The notes under the pieces were generated by a model. It had not been told where the DNA came from. It was given only the letters and a program-made list of their open reading frames with translations, and searched no databases. A stretch of 56,020 bases of DNA from Clostridia bacterium (lineage in GTDB: Bacteria; Bacillota; Clostridia; Oscillospirales; Acutalibacteraceae), in assembly GCA_017550625.1 (NCBI GenBank), contig JAFZOL010000067.1:1-56020 (forward strand), written 5' to 3'. Numbering within the stretch: position 1 is the stretch's first letter; each line of letters begins with the position of its first letter. The position numbers and the translations under genes were made by a program. Shown piece by piece: positions 22,811-56,020 of the stretch.

Positions 22811-22843
22811 AAAAAAAGGGTTGCCCGCGGGCAGCCCTTTTTT
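22811..22843. terminator. Bidirectional intrinsic terminator
   Basis: AAGGGTTGCCC, GC, GGGCAGCCCTT with an A-run before and a T-run after, between convergent genes. Confidence 0.85.
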
Positions 22844-22859
22844 GATATTGCGGATTGGA

Positions 22860-25163
22860 TCAGAACACGCCGAGCAGGCTCGTCATGTAGCCGGTGGGCA
22901 TGAAGATCCCGAGGTAGGTATAGGGGTCGCCGTAGTCGGCGCCCCAGCCGCTGCCCCAGCACACGTCGCAGTTCTTTTCAGCGCCGGAGCCGATCCTGTA
23001 AAAGCAGGCGTAATAGTCGTTCGGGTCGTCCAGACCGATCAGGTTCACGACGACGTTCTCTTTGCCGAGCACCCCTTCGATGATCTTCTTATACTGCGCG
23101 GCCTGGTTCGTGTTGGATTGGCTGCCCGCGTAATACGTCACGTCGAGCTGCACGGGCCAGGCGACCGCCGTGCCGAGCTCGGCCTTCGCGGCTTCGAGAT
23201 AGGTCTTGGCGTTTTCGGGGTTATACCAGCCGTTCACGCCGTCGCGCACGTCGATGTCGAGGTTCATGCGCTCGCAGTAATGCGCCACGAGCTCGCCGTA
23301 GGACGTGCCCGCCGGGAAGGTGTAGCCGTGGACGTCGGTGGTGTCTTCGGACAGGAAGAACAGATCCGGGTCGCAGAGCATGTTGCGCAGGTTGTTGGCC
23401 GCGACGTCCTCGCCGACGGCCACGGCGTTGAACGAGAGCTTGTCGAAGGCGAACACGAGCGCCTTGCGGAAGTTTTTGTTGTTGATCGCGGCGGCGTAGC
23501 TGAGCTTGCCGACCTCGCTCTTATTGCTGGCGCCGGCGCCGTTTTCGAGGGCGAAGGTGCCGCGGTTGAGCGTGAGGGCGTTCATGTAGGTCACCGAGCT
23601 CGTTTCGCCGATGTAGACGCAGTTCTGCACGACCTGGTCCTTGTCAAGGAACTCCTGCAGCGTCCAGTTGATCGCAGCGCCCGAAAGCCTGCCGTCTTTC
23701 AGCATGGCCCAGATCTCCTCGGGGGAGAGGAAGGCGGTCTGCACGTATTGCACCTTCGTGACCCGCACCGAGGCGCGGTCGTAATAATCCGGGTTCTGCC
23801 GGAGCGTCACGCCGTTTTCGTCGAGCTCCACGGGCAGATACGCCCCGCAGTAGACCTGGCTCTGAAGGTCGTCGGCAAAGCCGTAGGCGTAGCGCCCGGT
23901 GTCGATCGCTTCGTTCAGGGCTTCCAAGCCGTAGGCGCCGCCCTTCGCCTTATAAAAGCTGTCGCAGATCGGCAAAAAGATGTTGTAGCTGAACATGGTG
24001 AGGAAATAGGGCGCGGGACGCTCGAGGGTGTAAACGACGGTGTAGTCGTCCGCCGCCTTCACGCCGACGCCCGCGAAATCCGTGATATGGCCGGAGAGAT
24101 AGCTTTCCACGCCCGCCACGACGCCGGCGGTGAGCCACTCAAGGCCGCCCTCGACGTCGAGCATGTGTCTGAAGCCCGCCACGAAATCGTTCGCGGTGAG
24201 GTTCGCGTAGTACCTGCCGTCCGCGGTGACCCACTTCACGTCCTTGCGGAGATGGAAGGTATAGGTCAGGCCGTCTTCGGACACTTCCCAGCTCTCGGCG
24301 AGGGCGGGCACGATCTGGCCGAAGTTGTCGTAGCGCACGAGGCCGTCCACGAGGTTCACGAGCACGTCGGAGTTGGAAGAGCGCGCGCTGCCGAGCCAGT
24401 CGAGGGTGTCGGGCGCTTTGGTCATGCCGACGGAATAGGTCGTGGCGAGGCCGTAGCCCCTGTCGACCAGATACTTCGCGGGGTCGTAGGCGCCTTCGCC
24501 GACGCGCGCCTTTTCCCACTGTTCGGTCAGCGCCTCGCGGTCGGCGGAGCTGATGAGGTCGCGCGTGACCACGAGGGACGCCACACGGCTGCCGTCGCAG
24601 CCCCAATGGCACAGGGCCGCGGTCTTGGGCGCGACGCGGCTCACGGACTTGGCGCCGCCGGAGGTAGTTGTGGGCTGCATGACGGCGGAATCGAGCAGAT
24701 ACGCCTCGGCCTCGGCGAACAGGGTGTAACGCTTGCCGGGGTCAAGCTCGTTGTTTGCCTGCTCGGTGAGCTTCACGTAGCGGCTCAGCGCCGCCTCGTA
24801 GACCTTGTTGTCGCTCTCGGGGCCGTAGCCGTCGCCGGTGGAATCCGCGGCGGAGAAATCAAGGTCGTTTTTCGGGCTGGGCAGGATTTCGGGCAGGGTG
24901 TCGAGGGCCACGGCGGCGCGCAGGGCGCTGCGGGCGTCCTCGGCGGTGAGAAAGCCGTCGCCGTTGGTGTCGGCGGCGATGAATTCCACCGAGTCGGGGT
25001 CAAAGGTCTCAAGGCCCACGGCCGCGCGCAGCGTCAGGCGGGCGTCGGCGGCGGTACGCTGGCCGTCGCGGTCCACGTCGCCGAGCCCCAGGGCTGCGAC
25101 GGACGCCGTCGCCGTGAGCGCGAGCGCGAGGGCGAGGCAGACGCATAACAGTTTTTTGAACAT
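22860..25163 (-). CDS. Dockerin-tagged peptide-binding protein with circularly permuted SBP domain
   Basis: A 767-residue secreted protein. Signal peptide about 1-24 without a lipobox Cys; dockerin pair about 26-90 (LGDVDRDGQRTAADARLTLR, AADTNGDGFLTAEDARSALR). The rest matches AliA/OppA-type peptide-binding proteins (SBP family 5) in the wrong order. Residues about 112-220 (YEAALSRYVKLTEQA, RYTLFAEAEAYLLDSAVM, SVSRVAP, ALTEQWEKAR) are what normally forms the extreme C-terminus. Residues about 238-767 begin with the normal N-terminus (YSVGMTKAPDTLDWLGSA, LTYTFHLRKDVKW) and stop at GADYGDPYTYLGIFMPTGYM, where the C-terminal part should start. Together they make up one whole domain, circularly permuted, with a linker near 221-237. 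It should bind peptides at the surface. Confidence 0.85.
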   Translation of the reverse strand: MFKKLLCVCLALALALTATASVAALGLGDVDRDGQRTAADARLTLRAAVGLETFDPDSVEFIAADTNGDGFLTAEDARSALRAAVALDTLPEILPSPKNDLDFSAADSTGDGYGPESDNKVYEAALSRYVKLTEQANNELDPGKRYTLFAEAEAYLLDSAVMQPTTTSGGAKSVSRVAPKTAALCHWGCDGSRVASLVVTRDLISSADREALTEQWEKARVGEGAYDPAKYLVDRGYGLATTYSVGMTKAPDTLDWLGSARSSNSDVLVNLVDGLVRYDNFGQIVPALAESWEVSEDGLTYTFHLRKDVKWVTADGRYYANLTANDFVAGFRHMLDVEGGLEWLTAGVVAGVESYLSGHITDFAGVGVKAADDYTVVYTLERPAPYFLTMFSYNIFLPICDSFYKAKGGAYGLEALNEAIDTGRYAYGFADDLQSQVYCGAYLPVELDENGVTLRQNPDYYDRASVRVTKVQYVQTAFLSPEEIWAMLKDGRLSGAAINWTLQEFLDKDQVVQNCVYIGETSSVTYMNALTLNRGTFALENGAGASNKSEVGKLSYAAAINNKNFRKALVFAFDKLSFNAVAVGEDVAANNLRNMLCDPDLFFLSEDTTDVHGYTFPAGTSYGELVAHYCERMNLDIDVRDGVNGWYNPENAKTYLEAAKAELGTAVAWPVQLDVTYYAGSQSNTNQAAQYKKIIEGVLGKENVVVNLIGLDDPNDYYACFYRIGSGAEKNCDVCWGSGWGADYGDPYTYLGIFMPTGYMTSLLGVF

Positions 25164-25200: not shown

Positions 25201-25230
25201 AATATAACACAGCCGCCCGAAGACTGTCAA
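25201..25230 (-). promoter_or_regulatory. Promoter of the dockerin peptide-binding protein gene
   Basis: TTGACA, 18 bases, TATATT on the minus strand, 38 bases before the start. Confidence 0.7.
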
Positions 25231-29326: not shown

Positions 29327-30214
29327 ATGAAAAAGACCTTACGTTCCCTGCTCGCGCTCGCGCTCGCGTCGCTCATGGCGCTCACGTTCCTTTCGGCCGT
29401 GCTCGCCGCCGCCGGCGACGTGGATCTCGACGGCAAGGTCACCGCGTCCGACGCGCGCCTCGCGTTGCGCAGGGCCGTGAACCTCGAGACCTACGAGGCC
29501 GGCAGCGCCGAATTCGTCGCCGCCGACGTCGACTACGACGGCAAGGTCACCGCGTCCGACGCCCGCCTCATCCTGCGCGCCGCCGTGGGGCTTGAGACGC
29601 TTTCGGAGCCGACGGGCGAGACCGAATACGACATCCTGCGCACCGGCACGTTCAACCTCGTTGCCACGATGGAAGACGAAACGGGCACCCGTCCCATGAA
29701 CATGGCCGTGGGCAAGAACGGCGAAGTGTATATGGAGACCGAGATGGACGGCGTGAGCATCGGCATCCTGATCCGCAAAGAGACCGTGCTGTTCATTTCG
29801 AGCACCAAGATGTATATGCTCAACATCGGTAAAAAGACCTACGCCGACGCGTCGCTCATCACCACCGTCGTGCCCGATCTCGATCTGGAATCCATCACCG
29901 ACGAGGTCAAAAACAACGGCTTCACGCAGATGCCGCCGCTCAGCGCGGCCTCGTCGCACGGCGCGGCCGAATTCGAGGGCACGGCCTGTGAAGTGTATAC
30001 ATTCGAAAGCGAAGAGACCGGCAAAAAGACCAACGTGTATCTCGCCGGGAGCAAGCTCATCGCCATCGAGCAGTTCGACGGCACGGGCGCGCTCGTCTCG
30101 CGCATGCGCGTCGAATCCGTGACAGCCGGCTTCCCGGCCTTCCCGCCCGAGGGCTATACGAAGCAGGATCTGCTGTCCTTCATCACCGACATCGAAGGCA
30201 CCGTTGAACCGTAA
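29327..30214 (+). CDS. Secreted dockerin protein with uncharacterised lipoprotein-like domain
   Basis: A 295-residue protein: signal peptide (about 1-28, ending SAVLAAA), a dockerin pair (GDVDLDGKVTASDARLALRR and ADVDYDGKVTASDARLILRA, about 29-90), then about 190 residues rich in beta strand. The tail (TFNLVATMEDETGTRPMNMAVGKNGEVY, YMLNIGKKTY, ACEVYTFESEETGKKTNVYL, LIAIEQFDGTG) resembles in pattern the LolA/LppX-like beta-half-barrel found in Firmicutes lipoproteins, but I cannot assign it firmly. No catalytic motif is seen. Start follows CGGAGGAAGAGAAG. Monocistronic with its own promoter and terminator. Confidence 0.8.
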   Translation: MKKTLRSLLALALASLMALTFLSAVLAAAGDVDLDGKVTASDARLALRRAVNLETYEAGSAEFVAADVDYDGKVTASDARLILRAAVGLETLSEPTGETEYDILRTGTFNLVATMEDETGTRPMNMAVGKNGEVYMETEMDGVSIGILIRKETVLFISSTKMYMLNIGKKTYADASLITTVVPDLDLESITDEVKNNGFTQMPPLSAASSHGAAEFEGTACEVYTFESEETGKKTNVYLAGSKLIAIEQFDGTGALVSRMRVESVTAGFPAFPPEGYTKQDLLSFITDIEGTVEP

Positions 30215-44369: not shown

Positions 44370-44460
44370 CCAAACGAAAACGGCGCCGCGAAACCGGGTC
44401 CGAAGGGGTCAGACGGACGATCCGGCGGGTGCGGAAGGCCGGGTTCGGGCGGGTAAAAGA
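44370..44460 (+). promoter_or_regulatory. Structured leader, possibly a GEMM-like (c-di-GMP) riboswitch
   Basis: The leader of the giant gene is GC-rich between AT-rich flanks. CCGCGAAACCGGGTCCGAAGG (44386-44406) and GGCCGGGTTCGGGC (44437-44450) resemble, in the same order, the conserved CGCAAAGCC-GGGTCTAAGG and AGCCGGGTTGCC blocks of GEMM-I riboswitches. CAAACGAAAA precedes them. Several conserved positions differ, so this is only a candidate. Confidence 0.3.
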
Positions 44461-44494
44461 CGCGATTTGGTGTATCACGAAAGGAGAACGATAC

Positions 44495-47400
44495 ATGGAA
44501 CACACGAAAACATACAAACACTCCGTCGGCAAACGGATGCTGAGCATCTTCCTGTCCCTTCTCATGGTGGCGGGCCTGTTTGCGATGGACTGGAGCGGGC
44601 TGATCAAGCTGTCTCCGACGGCAGAAGCAGCAACGGCAGGTAGTTACTATGTCAAAGTTACTGGCGAGAACACGCATTCATATGCATTGATCAAACCGTC
44701 CAATCTGAATAATACTTTCACGGCGGGGTGGGACAGTACAACAAATGACAGTGCAGGTATGGTAATTCGATACAAAGGGAATAACGGTACCGATTCAAAT
44801 ACTTCTGATAAAATTGTGGACATGCATGATTGGGGTCAACCTGTTGATAAAAGTACGCATGCGCATGAATTGTCAACATGGGTATCTGGGTTCCCAACAG
44901 GTTTTTATTTCTGCTTAGACCAAAACGATGCTCCTGGACGATCCACGATAATAAGAATTAAGAAAATTGAAATCGGTCCGGATGCCAATCATTTGACTAC
45001 TATTTTTAATGGTACAATAGAACTTAACTGTACTAACCAAACAAAGAAAGCTTTTATTTATCAAAATAATACCTCTAGCCATTCCAATGACGTTTCAATT
45101 TCCGGTTTGACCGGCTGGTGCATGCCCTACGCAAAAACAATTACGTGGAATAATTCCGATAAGGAAGTGCAGCTCAGTTATTCCGATAATGTAACCAGCA
45201 GTACGGAAACGGCGACGATCAAGGATCAGTATGGTGTAAACTGGTATCAAGATCCGTATTATGCGCTTTCATCGGGAACAACTTATACCGAGAATACCGT
45301 TACGCTGAACGATATAACGATTGGCAATAAGAATCAAGCTGCAACGAAAACCCTGACGGCGCAAAAAGGTATTACTTATGTTTCTAATTCCTATTCGACC
45401 GATACAAACGGGAATTATTACCGTGATGCGTATGTCCACGCGTATTTAAAATCACCCGCCACATATAACAATGCGGGAACAAACACAACAAACACAACGA
45501 CCGTTCACGGATATACAAAATTCAAGCTCATCCTGCCCACGTATGCCATTACTTTTCAGGGTAATGGCCATACGAGCGGGAGCATGAACGCGCAGACGAT
45601 CCCTTACGGGATCGCGACGAACCTGACCGCGAATGCTTTCACGCGGGAATATACGGTTTCTTATAATTATCATGAAGCGACGAGCGGCAATTCCACACCT
45701 TCCGCGAAGGCAACATATACCTTTAAGCATTGGAATTCCGCTGCCGACGGCAACGGGACTTACACCTATGCAAATCAGGCCAGTGTTACCAGCATCGGCA
45801 ACATGACGCTCTACGCGCAGTGGAATTCCGCCAGTGTAACGCTGCCGAATCCCGAAAAAACCGGGTATACTCTGGAGGGATGGTATACGGCAGCCTCCGG
45901 TGGAACGAAGGTTGGAGATGGCAATGGGAGCTATACGCCCACCGCGAATATTCAGCTCCACGCCCAGTGGACTCCCATCACCTATACGATCCAATACAAC
46001 GGCAACGGCGGCACGGGTTCGGTGGCTTCTCAAACGAAGACCTATGATACCAACCTGACGCTGAGAACAAACTCGTTCACGAGAGAAGGCTGGCACTTCC
46101 TCGGCTGGAGTCAGAGCAGCACTGCCACCACCGAAACGTGGGGCGGCGGCGCGACTCTGTCGAGCGACCTTTCCACCACGCCCGACGCCACAGTCACGCT
46201 CTACGCGGTGTGGGCGCGCAACACGTCCAAGGTCACCGTATGGCAGTATAAAGACGGCACGACCCTCACGAACAAACTTGTGGACGCGCGTCAGGGAGAC
46301 TCCGGCACGACCTACGTGCTCACTCCCGGCACGCGCAACGGCTACACGCTCGACCATTGGGCGTTTGAGACTGCTTCGCCGAACGGCTCGATCAGCGGCA
46401 ATACCTACACCTACGGCCCGGCGGCTTCCACCACGCCCGACGTGGTTTACGGTGTGTGGACGGCGAACAATATCAAGATCACGTTGAACCATCAGAGCGG
46501 CACTTCCAATCGGGATGAGTTCTATTACACCTACAATACGAACGCGTATTTCTCCGATTCGGCGCACAACACGGCAATCTCGTCCGTGCCCGTGCCGACC
46601 AGAGCCGGTTACACCTTCGGCGGCTATTATACCGGCACGAACGGTTCCGACACGCAGTATGTGAACGCTTCCGGCGACTTCGTGAACAATCTTTACAGTG
46701 ACGTGTATGCGGACACCACGCTCTATGCCAAGTGGACCGAGAACGTGATTGACGTCACTCTCGACAATCAGTCCGCCACGACTGCCGGCACCGGGCACGT
46801 GTATTATAAGTACACGATTTCCGGTTATTATTCCAACTCGACTGCGACGACTTCGATCACGAGCATCACGGTCCCGACGAAGACCGGCTACACCTTCGGC
46901 GGCTATTACAGCGAAGAAAACGGCGGCGGCACGCAGTATATCAACGCGGACGGCAGCTTCAGTACCACGCACAACCTGTATTCGGCTTATTCCGCGAACG
47001 TAACGCTGTACGCCAAGTGGACCGCGAACACCTATACGGTCAAATTCAACGGCAACGGCCACACCTCCGTCGCAGATGGCTACACGAATACGCAGGGCTT
47101 CACCTATGACGTTGCGCAGGCGCTCAGGGGCAACGGCTACGGCCGCTCCTACGTGATCACGCTTGATCCGAACAGCGGCGCGGTGACGCCCACCGAAATC
47201 ACCGCCAGCTACACGTTCGACGGCTGGGCGACCAGTGAGAACGGCAGCGTTGCTTATGCGAATGGGGCGACTGTTTCGAACCTCGCCACGTCCGGAACCT
47301 ATACGCTCTATGCGCATTGGGATGCTTCCTCCGCCGCGAAGACCCTGCCCACGCCTACGCGCGACGGCTATGAGTTCGAGGGCTGGCACGTCGGTTCCGT

Positions 47401-50400
47401 TTCGGGCACGAAGGTGACTTCGCCCTATACCCCCACGGCCGACGTGACGCTGGTGGCAAACTGGACGCCCATCCCCTACACCGTCAGCTATGATACCGAC
47501 GGCGGCAATCCGCTTACGGGCACCAGCTACAATATCACCCAGTCCGTGACCCTGGCCACGCCCACGAAGACCGGCTACACCTTTGTCCGGTGGGACGTGA
47601 AAACGCCGGCCGGCAACTGGCTTTCCTCCGAGAGCTTCGATACCGCGCACCTGAACGTGGCGGCGGGCAAGTGGGGCAACGTGGAACTCAAGGCTGTTTG
47701 GACCCCCATCACCTATTCCATCCACTTCAACGGCAACGGCAGCACCTCGGGCAACACCTCGAACCAGACCGGCGTGGTCTACGATCAGGATACCGAGGTC
47801 AACACCAACGGCTTCACGAGGACCTATAAGATCGACTACGTCGACAACTCGTACGGCCACAGCCTTGCGAACCAGTATACGCCCCGCACCTTCCTCGGCT
47901 GGGGCACGAGCGCGGGCGGCAGCGCCGTCTACCGCACGGGCACGGACAACGAAACGAACAAGACGGTCCGCAACCTTGCAAGCACGCAGGGCGCCACGGC
48001 AGAGCTCTACGCGATCTGGGACGAAGACCTGACCACGCTTTACGCGCCCACCGAGACCGGTTACACGCTCGAAGGCTGGTATACCGATCCCGGCTTTGAT
48101 GCGTCGACCCGCGTGGGCAGCCCGAACGATACGATCGTTCTGACCGAAGACATCACCGTTTACGCCCGCTGGGTCGCGCAGGTCTACCGCGTGGTCTATA
48201 ACGGCAACGGCGGCACCGGCACGGCGCCGGCCGCGAACGATCCCGTCAACTTCGGCACGTCGTTCACGCTGGCAGCCAACACCTTCACAAAGACCGGCTA
48301 TACCTTCAAGGGCTGGACCCGCGAAGGCGGCGAGGGCGGCCCCTGGATGCCCGGCAGCATCGCCATCAGCACGATCGTTACGAATGCCGACAGCACCCAG
48401 TACGGCGTTTGGGACGATACCCTCGGCCGCGTGGTGGTCAATCTCTACGCCAAGTGGGAAGCCAACACCTACACCGTTACATACCATTATAATTATGAGG
48501 GCGCCCCCGAGGACGCCACGAGAAATGCCACCTACGACAGCGCATGGCCCACGGCGCCCACCTATACGCGCGTGGGATACACCTTCGGCGGCTGGTATGA
48601 CGAGGCCACATGCACGAACGAGACTGACATGACCGACGATTACACGATCGCCGGCAACAAGGACGTTTACGCCAAGTGGAACCCCGTTCCTTACACCGCG
48701 CACTTTGACGGCAACGGCGGCTCGAACCCGAACGACGTTCCCTTTAACACCGACACGTCGCTCTCGCTGCCCGCCTCCACCCGCACGGGCTATACCTTCA
48801 AGGGCTGGAAGGTGACCGCAGTCGCCGACGTCAGCAACTGGACCTTAGACCTCGTTTACAACGAGACCGTGACGAGCGTACCCGCAGGCAAATACGGCAA
48901 CGTGACCTTCACCGCGCAGTGGACGCCGATCGAATACACGATCACCTTCGTCAACAACGGCGCCACCACGCAGCAGACCTATACGATCGTGAGCGAAGGC
49001 ACGCTCGGCACGCCCGAACGCGCGGGCTATACCTTCGGCGGCTGGAAAGCCTCCGACGCGACCGCGCCCACCGCGTGGAACAACGGCAGCACCTACGGCG
49101 GCAATACCTCGCTCACCGGCAAATACGGCAACGTGACGCTGACCGCCCAGTGGACGCCTGTTCCCTACACGATCACCTATACCGATTCCGTCGCCTCCGG
49201 CGAATCCGCCGCGGGCACGAAGGACTATACTCCCGATTCCACGGATACGCTCAAGACCCCTGCCAAGGTCGGCTATAACTTCCTGAACTGGAAGGCCACG
49301 GCGACCGATGCGACGTCCGCCTGGACCGTGGACACCACCTACGCCGGCGGCACCTCGCTCACCGGCAAATACGGCAACGTGACGCTCGAAGCCCAGTGGC
49401 AGGCGCACACCTACACCATCACCTTCGATAAGAACGCACCCGACGGCGTCACCGTGGGCGGAACGAATCCCGACCAGAACGTGACCTACGACGTCGCTTA
49501 TACCCTGAACACCAACAACTACACCGCGCTGGGTTACACCTTCCTCGGCTGGAGCAGAAACTCCGGCGCGACCGCCGCCGAATTCGGCGACGAGGCGCAC
49601 CTGACGAACGAGCTCTATACCGCTGTGGAGAACGTCGCGCAGAACGTCACCCTGTACGCGATCTGGCAGCGCAACGCCTCCGACCTGACGCTCGATCTCA
49701 ACGGCGGCACCTACACCGGCACGAACCCGATCCACGGGCTCTCCGGCGAAACGGTCAGCCTGCCCACGCCCACCGCGCCCACCGGCATGGTGTTCGTCAA
49801 GTGGGAAGCGGTCGGCACGCTCAACGGCACGCTCTCGTCTGACGGCATGAGCTACACCTTCGCGACCGCCAACGCGGCGAACGACACCGTGAAGGCGAAA
49901 TACAGCAACAAGACCTTCACCATCACCTATCAGTACGGCGAGAACCCGGATGCGACCAAGGATCAGACCGTCTCGGGCAACTACTTCAGCACGGGGCTCA
50001 GCCACCTGACCGCCGCGGCTTTCCCGACGAACCCCGGCTACACCCTCAAGGGCTGGGCTGCCACCGTCGGCGGCACCACGATCGCCTATACCCTCGGCGC
50101 GGCCATCAATCCCACCGCGTTCTGCGGCGAAAACGCGCACACCGATACCACCCTGTACGCGATCTGGGAAATCAACCGCTCCGAACTGACGGTCAATCCG
50201 AACGGCGGCACGTGGAACGGCAGCACGGCCGAGACCACCCTCGAGAACGAATACAATACCGAGATCACCGTCGCCGACCCGACCCGCACGGGCTATACCT
50301 TCGCGGGCTGGGATACGACCGGTATCCACAACGGCAGCTTCAACGCCTCCACCAGAAAATACGTGTACGGCACCGTCAGCATGGCGGACGCCGGCTACAC

Positions 50401-53400
50401 CGCCGACGAACTGGTCGCGCAGTGGAACGCCAACAGCTATAGCGTGGTTTATCACGGCGAAGGCACGGATATTTACACGCAGAACGGCGGCAAATACGAC
50501 ACCGAGCTTACGCTCTACGCCGGCACTGCCATCACGAAGACCGGCTGGACGCTCGTCGGCTGGTCCAAGACCGAGGGCGGCGCGAAGGACTACAACCTCT
50601 CCGCCGAACTGACGATCGCCCAGGCGAACGCCCTGTATGAGGCGCAGGTCGCCGACATGACCGCCGCCCAGCCGCACACCGTGGATCTGTACGCCGTGTG
50701 GCAGCAGAACGAGTCCACCGTGATCGTGAAGAACGAACCGGACGGCACCGTGATCTTCAACGAGACCGACAAGTCCGGCGAGACCCTCGACATCACCGTC
50801 GACACCAAGACTGGCCACAAGTTCGTCAAGTGGGTCTGGGAGAGCGCTTCGCACAACGGCTCGCTGGCCGATGATGAATCGCAGAGCACCACCTACACCT
50901 TCGGCAACGCCGCGAACGAAACCGATACCCTGTGGGCGACCTGGACCCCGATCCAGTACGGCATCCACTTCGACGGCAACGCGCCCGTCGCGGGCGGCAC
51001 CGTGAACAACGTGCCCGGCAGCATCACCAAGACCTGGGGCGTGGCCACCGCCGCCATCGGCAGCACGGTCCCGACCTTCACGGGCTGGACCTTCGCCGGC
51101 TGGTCCGACGGCACGAACGATCCCTACGCCTACAACGCCGTCATCGACACCGATTACTTCAACTTCGTCACCGACGCGAACTTCGACTCCGGCAAGACGC
51201 TGGTCGCCCAGTGGACGCGCAACACCTCCACCCTGCATCTCGACCTGAACGGCGGCAGCGGCATCACCACGACCGATATCACGCAGGATTCCGGCACGAC
51301 CTATGCGGTCCCGACGCCCACCGCGCCCACCGGCATGGTGTTCACGGGCTGGACGGCTGTCGGCACGCCGAACGGCAGCTTCGACGGCACGACCTATACC
51401 TTCCCGCAGGATAACGGCCTCGAGGATACCCTTCAGGCGCAGTACGAATACAAGACCTATACCATCACCTATCAGTACGGTTCCACCGCGGACGCGACCA
51501 AAGACAAGACCATCTCCGGCGCGTACAACGAGACCAAGAACCATTACGGCGCGGCCGACTTCACGAAGATCGGCTACACCCTCAAGGGCTGGGCTGCGAG
51601 CCTGACCGACGCAAACAACGGCACGGTTACCTACACGCTCGGCGCGACGATCGACGTCGACGTCTTCTGCGGCGCGAACGCGCACACCGACACAACCCTG
51701 TACGCGGTGTGGGAGATCAACCGCTCCGAACTGAAGGTCGATCCGAACGGCGGCACGTGGAACGGCAGCGCGAACGAGACCACCGTTGAGAACGAATACG
51801 GCTTCGAATACACCGTCGCCGATCCGACCCGCACGGGCTATACCTTCAACGGCTGGAATGACTCTGGCATCCATAACGGTACCTTCTCCGAATCCACCAG
51901 GAAGTACGTCTACGGCGCCGTCAGCAAGGAGGCCGAGGGCTATACCGCCGATACGCTGACCGCGAAGTGGAACGCCAACATCTTCACCGTCGTGTACCAC
52001 GGCGAGGGCACGGCGACCCACACGCAGACCGGCGGCGTCTACGACGCGGAGCTGACGCTCTATGACGGCGCGCTGCTCACGAAGACCGGTTACACGCTGG
52101 TCGGCTGGTCCAAGACCGAGGGCGGCGCGAAGGCCTACGACCTCTCCGCCGCGCTGACGGCTGCACAGGCGAACGCGCTGTATGAAGAAAAGGTTTCCGA
52201 CCAGAGCGCCGCGCAGCCTCACACGATCGACCTCTACGCCGTGTGGGAGCGCAACACCTCGAAGGTCCACGTCTTCCAGTATAAGCTGAACGGCGTGCTC
52301 ACGAACGAGCTGGTCGAAGTCACGCCCGGCAACTCCGGCGACACGATGGAGCTCGATCCCGAGACCCGCACCGGCTACACCTTCGACCACTGGGAGATCG
52401 ACACCGATCCCGCCACCGGCTCGATCAGCGGCAACATCTATACCTTCGGCAACGCGAGCTCCATCACGCCCGACGACGTGTACGGCGTGTGGAACGCGCA
52501 TCACTACAACATCAACTATAAGGCCAACGACGGCCAGTCCTCCGACAAGCTGTTCCCGAACTACGTTTACGACGAATATGTCACCCTCGCCGCGGAAGAC
52601 CTGTTCACCCGCACGGGCTACGAGATCGTCCGCTGGTGGACGGCCTACGACGAGACGAACGGCCTCAACGGCACGTCTTACACGCCCGGGCAGGACGTGA
52701 TGAACCTCACGAGCGTCGACGGCGCCACCGTGGACCTCTACGCCGAATGGCAGGTCAAGGACTTCACGGTCACCCTTGCGCCCGAGACCGGCTATGAGGA
52801 CGGCTACTCCGTCTCTCCCGCCGCGCTCGTCCAGACGATCTACTATCAGAATTCCGTGGCGTACGAGATCACGCTGGCTGACGGCTACACCGACACCACC
52901 GTGGCGGATCTGAATCCCACCGTGACCGCGGGCTCCGCCTCCGTGACCGGCGTGAAGAACGGCAACGTGATCACGCTCACCGTCACCTGCCTCAACGAGG
53001 GCGACATCACCGTCACGCTCGGCAAGGCGAAAAAGAACACCTACACCGTCACGCTGGTGCATGAGAACGGCAGCTTCAACTCCGCCGTCAACGGCTACGA
53101 CAGACCCGAGGTCCAGGCCACCGTCACCCACGGCGAAAACGTCGCGTTCAGCGTCGCGCTGGCGGCCGCCTATTCCGAATCCCCGTCCGTGCTCGTGGGC
53201 GTCACGCCCGCCGGCGCGTACGAGAGCGTGCAGTCGACCGAGCGCTGGAGCTACGTGGTCGAAAACGTGACCGGCAACATCACCATCACCCTGAAGGACG
53301 CCGTGATCAACCGCAACACCGTGGAGTTCAAGGTGAACCCGAACGAGGGCTCCTTCGGTGTGGACGGCGAAAACAATCCGATCCTGCAAGTAAGCGAAAC

Positions 53401-56020
53401 GGGCAACGCCGGCACGACCTACACCGTGACCGAGCCCACCCGCACGGGTTACGACTTCGCGGGCTGGCAGGCGGATGAAAACAACGCCGCCGCCAACGGC
53501 AGCCTTGCGGGCAACACCTACACCTTCGGCAACGGCACCGGCACGAACACCTACGTCGCGACGTGGACGCCGAAGACCTACACCGTGACCCTCACCAAGA
53601 CCGCGGGTCCCGAAGCCTGGGCCACCATCTCCGAGATCGGCACGCAGCAGGTGACCGCCACCTACGGCGAGAACCTCGCCTCGATCACCGCGCCCGTCAA
53701 GGTCGGCTACGACTTCCTCGGCTACACGCTCACCGAAGGCGGCACCGATTACCGCTATCAGAACGGCGCGTGGACTGCTGACTACACGCCCTTCACCGGG
53801 ATCGCCAACGTCGAGCTCTTCGCGAAGTGGCAGAAGCACGTCTACTCCGTAACCGGCACCGTCGCGGACCACTACACGCTCGGCGCGCTCAGCAGCAAGT
53901 ATTACGACGATACCTACACCTTCACCGTCACCGCCGACACGGGCTACGACATTAACGACGTGACCGTGGACGTGACCGGCAGCGTCTCCTTCTCCACCTC
54001 GATCTCCGGCAACGTGATGACCGTCACCGTGACCGGCGTGCGCGACGACAACGTGATCACCGTCACCGGCGGCGATCTGCTCGACGTGTATCTGAGCGTG
54101 GTCAAGGGCAATAACGCCTTCGTCGGCACCCCGGCGCCCACCGCCGCGAAATACGGCGACACGAACGTCGCGATCAGCGTGACCGTGGAAGAGGGCTATT
54201 ACCTCGACGCCTCCTGCGTCGCCGCCGATCCCGACTCCGCTACGTTCACCGTGGCCCAGGTCGGCGACACCGACGAATACACGCTCACCGTCACCTCCGC
54301 CATGGAGTCCGACGTCGCGCTCACCGTCACGCCTCAGCCGAAGACCTATCAGGCAATCCTGGTCGGCGCCGGCACCGGCCTCACGGTCGGCGACGGCACG
54401 GCTAAGGATATCGTGTATCTCACCACCGTGAACGGCGCGTTCACGCTCACGCTCGACGCGGGCTACACGCAGACCACGGTCGCGGATCTCGCCGTCACCG
54501 TTGAAAACGGCACAGCAACGCTTACGAAGAGCGGCGACACGATCACCGTCAACGTGACCTCCACCGCCCCCGGCGACGTGAAAGTCACCATCGGCGACGC
54601 GCGCGAGAACACCTACACCGTCACCCTCGTGAACAACGCGGGCGCCACCCTGACGCTCGATCCCGTGCCCGAGAGCCCGAAGACCGTCGCGTACTCCGGC
54701 TCCTACGCCGTCAGCTTCACGGTCAACGCGGGCTACCATCTGCCCGAAGGCAATCTGCTGACCGCCGACACCGGCGTCACGATCGTCAAGAGTGCCGATG
54801 GTCTGAGCTACACCGTGAGCGGCTTCACCGCCGACACCGTGCTCACCCTCGCCGCGGCTGAGCCCAACGCCAGCACCCTTATCCTGGTGCTCGGCGGCGG
54901 CACGCTTGCCGGCTACACCGACGGGCAGGAGATCCCCGGCGTCTACACCGACACGAAGACCTTCGGCAAGCCCGCCAAGGCCGGCTACACCTTCCTCGGC
55001 TGGGTCCTCTCCGACGGCGCGAACGGCTCCGTCACCGAGGGCGCGAACCAGTCCGTGACCTACGCCTACGGCACCGAGGCCGGCGCCAGGGATACCCTCA
55101 CCGCGACCTGGCAGGCCAACACCTATCACATCATCTATAAATACAACACCATGACGGATACCGACGACGTGGTATTCGGCGCCGAAAACGTCACGCTGCG
55201 CACCACCGCCTCGTTCGCGAACGCCAACGAAGGCTACACCCTGACCGGGTGGAAGGACGCCGCCAACGTCGTCCACGAGCTCGGCGACAACGTGGGCACC
55301 TACACGACGGTCGGCGACACGGTGTATGAGGCCGTGTGGACGATCAACACCTCCACGCTGCACGTCGATCTCAACGACGGCAGACTCTACGGCGACACCA
55401 CGTGGGACAACGGCGACGCCGAACATCCCAACGCGCGTGACTTCACGCAGGCTTACAACACGCCCAAGACCATCAACACGCCCGTCCATCCCGGCTACGA
55501 CTTCACCGGCTGGACCTTCGAGAAGGCCGAGGGCAACACCTCCACCTTCGTCGGCAGCACCTACACCTTCGGCCGCGTCAACGGCGCCGAGGATAAGCTG
55601 ACCGCCGGCTGGCAGCCGAAGAACTACAGCATCGTCTACCGCTACAACGTCGGCACAAGCACCGCCTCTTACACGCAGTCGGTGACCTTCAACGAGGCTG
55701 TCACGCTTGAGGGCGAGGTCTTCACGAGAGAAGGCTACACGCTGCTCGGCTGGGCCGACGCCGCCGACGCCGCCGCGCCGGACTACGCGCCTAACGCTGC
55801 GTACACCGACCACTACACTACCGTCGGCGACACCGTGCTCTACGCGGTGTGGCAGCCGATCGAGAGCACCGTTGAGATCTACGGCGACGTAACCGACACC
55901 ACGCCCGCCGCGACCGTGACCGGCAACGTTGACAGCGAGGCTGTCACGCTGAACCAGAGCTTCACGAAGACCGGCTACCACTTCACCGAGTGGACCATCG
56001 AGCATATCGACGGTGCAAAC
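44495..56020 (+). CDS. Giant InlB B-repeat surface protein (partial, runs off window)
   Basis: At least 3,842 residues with no stop before the window end. The ATG at 44495 follows AAAGGAG by ten bases. A long signal peptide (KRMLSIFLSLLMVAGLFA, cleavage probably after TAEA, about residue 45) leads to a unique AT-rich-coded domain (about 46-345). Then come roughly 25-30 Listeria-Bacteroides (InlB B) repeats of 65-90 residues, each with GYTFxGW and (V/T)TLYAxW strands (TGYTLEGWYTAASGG, LHAQW and so on). Between about 52756 and 54870 a different beta module recurs (YTVTL, then a long run to ITITL). InlB repeats resume to the end. It is expected to be a secreted or wall-bound adhesin; the anchor lies outside. 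Frame checked at the start, near 50000 and at 56020. Confidence 0.9.
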   Translation, partial: MEHTKTYKHSVGKRMLSIFLSLLMVAGLFAMDWSGLIKLSPTAEAATAGSYYVKVTGENTHSYALIKPSNLNNTFTAGWDSTTNDSAGMVIRYKGNNGTDSNTSDKIVDMHDWGQPVDKSTHAHELSTWVSGFPTGFYFCLDQNDAPGRSTIIRIKKIEIGPDANHLTTIFNGTIELNCTNQTKKAFIYQNNTSSHSNDVSISGLTGWCMPYAKTITWNNSDKEVQLSYSDNVTSSTETATIKDQYGVNWYQDPYYALSSGTTYTENTVTLNDITIGNKNQAATKTLTAQKGITYVSNSYSTDTNGNYYRDAYVHAYLKSPATYNNAGTNTTNTTTVHGYTKFKLILPTYAITFQGNGHTSGSMNAQTIPYGIATNLTANAFTREYTVSYNYHEATSGNSTPSAKATYTFKHWNSAADGNGTYTYANQASVTSIGNMTLYAQWNSASVTLPNPEKTGYTLEGWYTAASGGTKVGDGNGSYTPTANIQLHAQWTPITYTIQYNGNGGTGSVASQTKTYDTNLTLRTNSFTREGWHFLGWSQSSTATTETWGGGATLSSDLSTTPDATVTLYAVWARNTSKVTVWQYKDGTTLTNKLVDARQGDSGTTYVLTPGTRNGYTLDHWAFETASPNGSISGNTYTYGPAASTTPDVVYGVWTANNIKITLNHQSGTSNRDEFYYTYNTNAYFSDSAHNTAISSVPVPTRAGYTFGGYYTGTNGSDTQYVNASGDFVNNLYSDVYADTTLYAKWTENVIDVTLDNQSATTAGTGHVYYKYTISGYYSNSTATTSITSITVPTKTGYTFGGYYSEENGGGTQYINADGSFSTTHNLYSAYSANVTLYAKWTANTYTVKFNGNGHTSVADGYTNTQGFTYDVAQALRGNGYGRSYVITLDPNSGAVTPTEITASYTFDGWATSENGSVAYANGATVSNLATSGTYTLYAHWDASSAAKTLPTPTRDGYEFEGWHVGSVSGTKVTSPYTPTADVTLVANWTPIPYTVSYDTDGGNPLTGTSYNITQSVTLATPTKTGYTFVRWDVKTPAGNWLSSESFDTAHLNVAAGKWGNVELKAVWTPITYSIHFNGNGSTSGNTSNQTGVVYDQDTEVNTNGFTRTYKIDYVDNSYGHSLANQYTPRTFLGWGTSAGGSAVYRTGTDNETNKTVRNLASTQGATAELYAIWDEDLTTLYAPTETGYTLEGWYTDPGFDASTRVGSPNDTIVLTEDITVYARWVAQVYRVVYNGNGGTGTAPAANDPVNFGTSFTLAANTFTKTGYTFKGWTREGGEGGPWMPGSIAISTIVTNADSTQYGVWDDTLGRVVVNLYAKWEANTYTVTYHYNYEGAPEDATRNATYDSAWPTAPTYTRVGYTFGGWYDEATCTNETDMTDDYTIAGNKDVYAKWNPVPYTAHFDGNGGSNPNDVPFNTDTSLSLPASTRTGYTFKGWKVTAVADVSNWTLDLVYNETVTSVPAGKYGNVTFTAQWTPIEYTITFVNNGATTQQTYTIVSEGTLGTPERAGYTFGGWKASDATAPTAWNNGSTYGGNTSLTGKYGNVTLTAQWTPVPYTITYTDSVASGESAAGTKDYTPDSTDTLKTPAKVGYNFLNWKATATDATSAWTVDTTYAGGTSLTGKYGNVTLEAQWQAHTYTITFDKNAPDGVTVGGTNPDQNVTYDVAYTLNTNNYTALGYTFLGWSRNSGATAAEFGDEAHLTNELYTAVENVAQNVTLYAIWQRNASDLTLDLNGGTYTGTNPIHGLSGETVSLPTPTAPTGMVFVKWEAVGTLNGTLSSDGMSYTFATANAANDTVKAKYSNKTFTITYQYGENPDATKDQTVSGNYFSTGLSHLTAAAFPTNPGYTLKGWAATVGGTTIAYTLGAAINPTAFCGENAHTDTTLYAIWEINRSELTVNPNGGTWNGSTAETTLENEYNTEITVADPTRTGYTFAGWDTTGIHNGSFNASTRKYVYGTVSMADAGYTADELVAQWNANSYSVVYHGEGTDIYTQNGGKYDTELTLYAGTAITKTGWTLVGWSKTEGGAKDYNLSAELTIAQANALYEAQVADMTAAQPHTVDLYAVWQQNESTVIVKNEPDGTVIFNETDKSGETLDITVDTKTGHKFVKWVWESASHNGSLADDESQSTTYTFGNAANETDTLWATWTPIQYGIHFDGNAPVAGGTVNNVPGSITKTWGVATAAIGSTVPTFTGWTFAGWSDGTNDPYAYNAVIDTDYFNFVTDANFDSGKTLVAQWTRNTSTLHLDLNGGSGITTTDITQDSGTTYAVPTPTAPTGMVFTGWTAVGTPNGSFDGTTYTFPQDNGLEDTLQAQYEYKTYTITYQYGSTADATKDKTISGAYNETKNHYGAADFTKIGYTLKGWAASLTDANNGTVTYTLGATIDVDVFCGANAHTDTTLYAVWEINRSELKVDPNGGTWNGSANETTVENEYGFEYTVADPTRTGYTFNGWNDSGIHNGTFSESTRKYVYGAVSKEAEGYTADTLTAKWNANIFTVVYHGEGTATHTQTGGVYDAELTLYDGALLTKTGYTLVGWSKTEGGAKAYDLSAALTAAQANALYEEKVSDQSAAQPHTIDLYAVWERNTSKVHVFQYKLNGVLTNELVEVTPGNSGDTMELDPETRTGYTFDHWEIDTDPATGSISGNIYTFGNASSITPDDVYGVWNAHHYNINYKANDGQSSDKLFPNYVYDEYVTLAAEDLFTRTGYEIVRWWTAYDETNGLNGTSYTPGQDVMNLTSVDGATVDLYAEWQVKDFTVTLAPETGYEDGYSVSPAALVQTIYYQNSVAYEITLADGYTDTTVADLNPTVTAGSASVTGVKNGNVITLTVTCLNEGDITVTLGKAKKNTYTVTLVHENGSFNSAVNGYDRPEVQATVTHGENVAFSVALAAAYSESPSVLVGVTPAGAYESVQSTERWSYVVENVTGNITITLKDAVINRNTVEFKVNPNEGSFGVDGENNPILQVSETGNAGTTYTVTEPTRTGYDFAGWQADENNAAANGSLAGNTYTFGNGTGTNTYVATWTPKTYTVTLTKTAGPEAWATISEIGTQQVTATYGENLASITAPVKVGYDFLGYTLTEGGTDYRYQNGAWTADYTPFTGIANVELFAKWQKHVYSVTGTVADHYTLGALSSKYYDDTYTFTVTADTGYDINDVTVDVTGSVSFSTSISGNVMTVTVTGVRDDNVITVTGGDLLDVYLSVVKGNNAFVGTPAPTAAKYGDTNVAISVTVEEGYYLDASCVAADPDSATFTVAQVGDTDEYTLTVTSAMESDVALTVTPQPKTYQAILVGAGTGLTVGDGTAKDIVYLTTVNGAFTLTLDAGYTQTTVADLAVTVENGTATLTKSGDTITVNVTSTAPGDVKVTIGDARENTYTVTLVNNAGATLTLDPVPESPKTVAYSGSYAVSFTVNAGYHLPEGNLLTADTGVTIVKSADGLSYTVSGFTADTVLTLAAAEPNASTLILVLGGGTLAGYTDGQEIPGVYTDTKTFGKPAKAGYTFLGWVLSDGANGSVTEGANQSVTYAYGTEAGARDTLTATWQANTYHIIYKYNTMTDTDDVVFGAENVTLRTTASFANANEGYTLTGWKDAANVVHELGDNVGTYTTVGDTVYEAVWTINTSTLHVDLNDGRLYGDTTWDNGDAEHPNARDFTQAYNTPKTINTPVHPGYDFTGWTFEKAEGNTSTFVGSTYTFGRVNGAEDKLTAGWQPKNYSIVYRYNVGTSTASYTQSVTFNEAVTLEGEVFTREGYTLLGWADAADAAAPDYAPNAAYTDHYTTVGDTVLYAVWQPIESTVEIYGDVTDTTPAATVTGNVDSEAVTLNQSFTKTGYHFTEWTIEHIDGAN
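49647..52256 (+). repeat. Two copies of a ~1.06 kb block within the giant gene
   Basis: About 49647-50712 and 51193-52256 encode the same series of repeats: LDLNGG with PTAPTGMVF, then TITYQYG with ATKD, INRSEL with PNGGTWNGS, DPTRTGYTF, and VVYHGEGT with SKTEGGAK. About 480 bases of other repeats separate them. A further related pair is RNTSKV...DHW at 46222-46500 and 52249-52520. Confidence 0.75.

Follow-up and report, generated by a model that had tools for sequence, protein, structure and literature searches.

A circularly permuted binding protein of SBP family 5 with a dockerin-like stretch, and its mostly lipid-anchored relatives

The gene described here lies at positions 22860 to 25163, on the minus strand, of a 56,020-nucleotide stretch from a Clostridia bacterium (assembly GCA_017550625.1, contig JAFZOL010000067.1), which as a whole is referred to as the window. 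On sequence evidence, the gene is confirmed as encoding a complete, naturally circularly permuted domain of substrate-binding protein (SBP) family 5. The canonical order of this family, an N-terminal part (N-part) followed by a C-terminal part (C-part), is not that of the window protein. The reading that we favour, and consider quite probable, is that the protein is a complete permuted SBP of the Ami/Ali type from a large, mostly lipid-anchored family, and that the window gene is an orphan in which a dockerin replaces the lipid and which would retain a role in peptide binding.

A complete binding domain in inverted order

The inversion appears in alignments with single proteins and with profiles. 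In phmmer alignments with AliB (8qlj), residues 241-756 correspond to chain residues 7-490 (245 bits) and residues 116-220 to chain residues 505-610 (43 bits), and the alignments with AliC and AmiA have the same inverted two-piece order; the separate matching of both segments to family 5 proteins proposed in the original prediction is thereby borne out. Compared with a canonical profile built from 21 of 24 canonical relatives, the protein in its native order matches in two pieces, profile positions 476-573 in front and 3-461 behind, whereas the same protein rotated to canonical order gives a single match from 3 to 573. Structure prediction of the full protein with AlphaFold2 yields one model with a predicted TM-score (pTM) of 0.83, in which residues ~111-767 are of high and the dockerin-like stretch of low confidence, and invariant residues are present in the C-part and the N-part alike (56 sequences). 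The claim that the whole binding domain is present, merely permuted, is upheld by the profile matches and this model. The protein matches Pfam PF00496 above the cut-off (143.4 bits against 32.4) over profile positions 1-361 of 368. This match is a single continuous segment confined to the central region of the chain, so that the rewiring is easily overlooked.

The layout of the gene and its upstream region is as follows.

22860..25163, minus strand: whole open reading frame (ORF), signal peptide, dockerin and circularly permuted SBP family 5 domain; 767 amino acids in an uninterrupted frame
25092..25163, minus strand: signal peptide, residues ~1-24, recognised by eye
24876..25091, minus strand: dockerin-like stretch, residues ~25-96, with two EF-hand-like repeats; Pfam PF00404, 19.9 bits (cut-off 22.9)
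24504..24818, minus strand: SBP C-part, placed first, residues 116-220, corresponding to AliB chain 505-610 (phmmer) and profile 476-573
24444..24503, minus strand: linker connecting the former C-terminus to the former N-terminus (residues 221-240), about 20 residues, from the alignment
22863..24443, minus strand: SBP N-part, placed last, residues 241-767, with the new C-terminus after GWGADYGDPYTYLGIFMPTGYMTSLLGVF (sequence, alignment and structural comparison)
22935..22937, minus strand: Asp743, equivalent to AliB D503 by alignment; the residue is Asp in 107 and a gap in two of the 109 permuted rows
25201..25230, minus strand: promoter-like TTGACA-18-TATATT (11/12), a consensus match only, with 1 found and a mean of 0.4 in shuffles

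The protein end given in the original prediction has to be corrected, as the chain continues to ...PTGYMTSLLGVF. In a comparison with 21 relatives, the lipobox is missing from the signal peptide of the window protein, and the relatives have the lipid-attachment cysteine at that place.

A family of permuted binding proteins

The genome of the window (G000) holds a second permuted gene (G000:C25:22404-24401), 47% identical, which has a lipobox and no dockerin. This paralogue heads an operon and is followed downstream by permeases of OppB and OppC type and by two ATPases of Opp type. Further afield, 163 ORFs from as many loci were sorted with separate profiles of the C-part and the N-part: 114 are permuted, representing 108 distinct cores besides that of the window, 24 are canonical and 25 are without a recognisable C-part. 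The same domain order, a search for which in related genomes had been suggested, is thus found in the C25 paralogue and in these 108 cores. All 114 permuted ORFs have a linker of 20-28 residues, longer than the roughly 15 originally estimated for the window protein, and in 113 of them the chain ends no more than 4 residues from the end of the profile.

Counted with the query genome included, and as lower bounds at the thresholds used, permuted SBPs occur in at least 3 of 26 genomes of the genus, 6 of 200 of the family, 24 of 394 of the order, 5 of 391 of the class and 2 of 398 of the phylum. Three other genomes of the genus have a canonical lipoprotein instead. A scan of named genomes gave 491 relatives, of which the best 80 comprise 78 permuted proteins and two cut at a contig end; by title, these 80 belong to Clostridia (63), Erysipelotrichia (7), Spirochaetia (5), Bacilli (2) and no named class (3). 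Nearly all are metagenome-assembled, and their sources, where named, are mostly rumen, other gut and faeces. The scan of genome contigs queried by the window protein alone returned 15 pattern matches and no relatives.

By eye, 17 permuted SBPs have a signal peptide without a lipobox (L110, L111, L117, L119, L122, L127, L128, L132, L136, L138, L141, L144, L145, L152, L153, L163 and L165). Five permuted SBPs (L133, L136, L138, L139 and L145) are from metagenome-assembled genomes titled as Spirochaetota. The two of these included in the trees, L136 and L139, are placed among Clostridia rows, which suggests transfer between phyla, provided that the bins are correct.

Origin and operon context

Trees were built on sequences rotated to canonical order and are unrooted. 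A single branch splits the permuted from the canonical proteins, with a support of 99 in the SH-like approximate likelihood ratio test (SH-aLRT) for 45 permuted and 24 canonical rows; a second tree of 27 permuted and 18 canonical rows has the same split (support 100/99). From these sequence comparisons, the permutation is most simply read as a shared trait of one origin. The original prediction had tied it to the dockerin fusion, a link that is not sustained: the order is shared by mostly lipid-anchored Opp SBPs, and a dockerin is seen in none of the 114 other permuted ORFs. An origin of the permutation in, or for, the dockerin fusion is rejected in view of this family-wide trait and its separation from the canonical proteins by one branch. 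The route put forward in the original prediction, a tandem duplication with later trimming, may have produced the permuted order.

The operon test covered 85 loci (83 in permuted order and 2 cut, with one contig counted twice). An OppB match is present in 78 of the 85, with 289-523 residues ahead of the OppB core, and oppB is the next gene in 78 of the 81 loci with at least 1.5 kb downstream, the exceptions being L154, L160 and L169. The canonical rows nearest to the permuted group are L089, L190, L199, L185 and L186; operons of these nearest rows encode an OppB of 498-518 residues (L200, L206, L208 and L209), and none was found in L201, also the operon of a nearest canonical row. In the remaining unpermuted loci tested, OppB has 313-347 residues, and in one case 405. 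AmiC has 498 residues (available text of PMC11192437), and by analogy a long OppB is taken as a mark of the Ami/Ali type. Since it occurs in the nearest canonical as well as in the permuted operons, the permutation probably arose within the Ami/Ali-type group, later than the long OppB.

Break point, pocket and tether

In Ami proteins, domains I and II form lobe 1 and domain III forms lobe 2; W500 and D503 of AliB grip the N-terminus of the peptide, regions R1 (AmiA 523-530) and R2 (532-538) form pocket P2, and the C-terminal helix a19 (AliD 622-652, 30 amino acids) is packed against lobe 1 (all from the available text of PMC11192437). Chain and full-length numbering of AliB differ by an offset of 26. 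By structural comparison, the last residue of the window protein corresponds to AmiA 533 and AliB 528, and the C-part begins near AliB 531, which by alignment places the break in or beside R2, within the R1/R2 specificity region at the rim of the lobe 2 pocket. The original prediction placed the new termini in a surface loop, and this correction makes it a particular one, at the pocket rim. W740 and D743 of the window protein align with W500 and D503 of AliB.

From sequence and alignment, the beginning of a19 together with the linker appears to span the gap between the old termini on lobe 1: the AliB alignment reaches chain residue 610 (full-length 636), inside a19, where the AlphaFold2 model has helices at residues 206-220 and 228-234, and the remainder is linker. 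Because the break lies in lobe 2, an N-terminal anchor, whether lipid or dockerin, is now on lobe 2 and no longer on lobe 1, in line with the prediction that the dockerin sits on a different face of the domain.

The dockerin copy and other re-anchored orphans

Dockerins are plugs which hook proteins onto the cellulose-degrading machinery. The dockerin-like stretch of the window protein has two repeats of DxDxDG type by eye, with weak EF-hand matches. In the same genome, 61 other dockerin-like stretches match it at 40-71% identity (57 when mirror pairs on contig C59 are counted once), and three cohesin matches exceed the cut-off; cohesins lie on contigs C40 and C25. It resembles type I dockerin proteins of cellulosome-making bacteria in its two EF-hand-like repeats and in that its genome encodes numerous stretches of the same kind as well as several cohesins; its partner domain differs, being a permuted transport SBP and not an enzyme. 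The window itself encodes a further dockerin protein (29327-30214, plus strand; PF00404, 37.4 bits), in whose C-terminal part no Pfam family was matched. On contig C59 of this genome (144,220 bases), which is not the contig of the window, eight dockerin matches form four mirror pairs with coordinates summing to 144,221, and this apparent palindrome is probably an assembly artefact.

The dockerin-loop motif is found in none of the 114 other permuted ORFs, four of which are cut before the N-terminus (L026, L108, L129 and L189, the last at a contig end and placed beside the window gene in the tree without resolution), and a comparison of the window dockerin with their N-terminal stretches gave a best E-value of 0.2. 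Nor did any of the 25 further genus members show the dockerin form, several of these genomes being incomplete and one of them holding the truncated candidate L189. Among the ORFs of the window, no permease gene adjoining the window gene was found. As judged from these sequences, the dockerin would be a later swap for the lipid anchor, and the window gene is the only orphan of this kind among the ORFs surveyed.

The three loci in which oppB is not the next gene are also those in which the SBP has acquired extra parts. L160 (3868-7980, plus strand) encodes a protein of 1371 amino acids that combines BspA-type leucine-rich repeats (LRRs) and three SLH domains with a permuted SBP, and oppB was not found within 6 kb downstream. 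In L169 (5932-8949, plus strand), I-set immunoglobulin (Ig) domains lie C-terminal to the permuted SBP, and in L154 (121-2691, plus strand) the SBP has an extra N-terminal part matching no assigned domain. A genus-mate (G951 contig 93; L212, 7317-10946, minus strand; also L188) encodes a protein of 1209 amino acids in which TIR_2 and a transmembrane helix precede the permuted SBP, and which, going by its domains, looks like a peptide-sensing TIR receptor. By eye, the same protein has zinc-ribbon-like cysteine motifs at its N-terminus, along with the transmembrane helix. The neighbours of these proteins in the tree are each a different lipoprotein (L063 for L154, L149 for L160 and L002 for L188), and L169 and the window gene branch alone. 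Given these separate places, SBP copies that left the operon seem to have acquired new anchors repeatedly.

Alternative explanations

An inverted order could in principle result from misassembly of tandem SBP genes or from a chimeric contig, the more so in a genome of 80 contigs, one of which (C59) resembles a head-to-head palindrome. The same order, the linker of 20-28 residues and the same C-terminal end, however, are repeated in the second gene and in distinct cores from many separate assemblies, and we reject this explanation with near certainty. A C-terminal scrap ahead of a truncated SBP, that is, two incomplete fragments, is rejected as very improbable: the two pieces jointly cover the canonical profile from 3 to 573, the single model is confident, and both pieces hold invariant residues. 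In its favour, the structural comparison with Ami/Ali proteins aligned residues 227-767 only. This counts against a complete domain as well, the placing of residues 112-225 where the C-part would otherwise be missing being suggested by model confidence and sequence.

Further points likewise weigh against the reading that we favour. One branch in an unrooted tree is no proof of a single gain. The PF00404 match of the dockerin-like stretch stays under its cut-off, and the stretch is poorly modelled. The window copy evolves fast: of 97 columns with a conservation of 95% or more among 103 operon-type rows, it is changed in 11 (median 0 in these rows, some of which have 7-36), and its branch is long (0.91-0.96); for these reasons its peptide binding may be altered or lost, and any function of the dockerin copy is one read from its sequence. 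The copy might thus be a drifting duplicate without peptide binding, at most an inert cellulosomal protein, a view with which the lack of the dockerin form in the genus (within the limits given above) would also agree. Against this stand the intact frame of 767 codons, the promoter-like site, the retained W740 and D743 and the confident fold, and we consider it unlikely. Equally unlikely, in our estimate, is that the protein, held near the surface by its dockerin, supplies peptides to the opp system of C25. The genome does have this paralogous operon, and the Ami system has five SBPs (available text of PMC11192437), but identity to the operon SBP is only 47%, and attachment to a cohesin would be expected to keep the protein off the membrane.

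In the favoured reading, a complete permuted Ami/Ali-type SBP with the dockerin in place of the lipid, the permuted domain would open and close on peptides like an ordinary OppA. Operon members would pass these peptides to an AmiC/AmiD-like permease while tethered on lobe 2. The dockerin copy would be exported, dock to a cohesin at the cell surface or cellulosome and capture peptides there, to store them locally, scavenge them or sense them, and would not be the SBP of the transporter itself. A broader proposal, offered only tentatively and more doubtful than not, is that one ancient permutation gave rise to peptide SBPs of a new class ("cluster C, permuted"), whose anchor leaves at the specificity pocket of lobe 2. 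With the tether beside the peptide, binding could be felt mechanically by a partner at the new N-terminus, which, if true, would explain the repeated recruitment of the domain, after its release from the opp operon, as a surface module with a dockerin, SLH domains and LRRs, Ig-like repeats or a transmembrane TIR receptor.

Comparison with known systems

The closest known system is Ami/Ali of Streptococcus pneumoniae (AliB 8qlj, AmiA 8a42, AliC 8qlh and AliD 8qlc), which the window protein resembles in domain sequence and fold and in the conserved Trp/Asp pair for the N-terminus of the peptide. The permuted operon members share the partner permease with a long OppB, as AmiC. The permuted family differs in its permuted chain order, in the linker which replaces the later half of a19 and in the tether on lobe 2, and the window copy differs further in having a dockerin, no lipid and no adjoining permease.

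No report of a permuted peptide SBP was found in the open-licence PubMed Central literature by titles and abstract openings. A natural permutation is described for one class of sugar SBP: TpMglB-2 (Tp0684) of Treponema pallidum is a naturally circularly permuted glucose-binding lipoprotein ("Type Ic / Cluster Bc") with relatives in treponemes and Gram-positive gut bacteria, and its authors link the topology to tethering, suggesting it as an answer to a need of tethered proteins (available text of PMC4990184). Going by that text, both it and the permuted family 5 proteins are tethered SBPs of ATP-binding cassette transporters, permuted, in spirochaetes and gut Gram-positives. TpMglB-2, however, belongs to cluster B (sugars) and has another break point, while the proteins described here belong to family 5, and their moved part, in contrast to that of TpMglB-2, has clear sequence homology; theirs is a separate event in another SBP class. 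Now that permutation is seen in similar hosts in another SBP class, unrelated to the first, the tethering idea becomes testable: in family 5 the new termini are located at the ligand pocket instead of far from it, and the lipid anchor seems to have been lost from some members. The re-anchored copies suggest that a rewired transport protein is able to become a movable surface part.

Other features of the window

A GC-rich inverted repeat at 22812-22846, between convergent genes and with A and T runs on either side, resembles by eye a two-way terminator; it is not among the matches of the consensus terminator scan. At the far end of the window, a frame of at least 3864 amino acids (44429-56020, plus strand), which runs off the window, contains 16 Flg_new (Listeria-Bacteroides) repeats.
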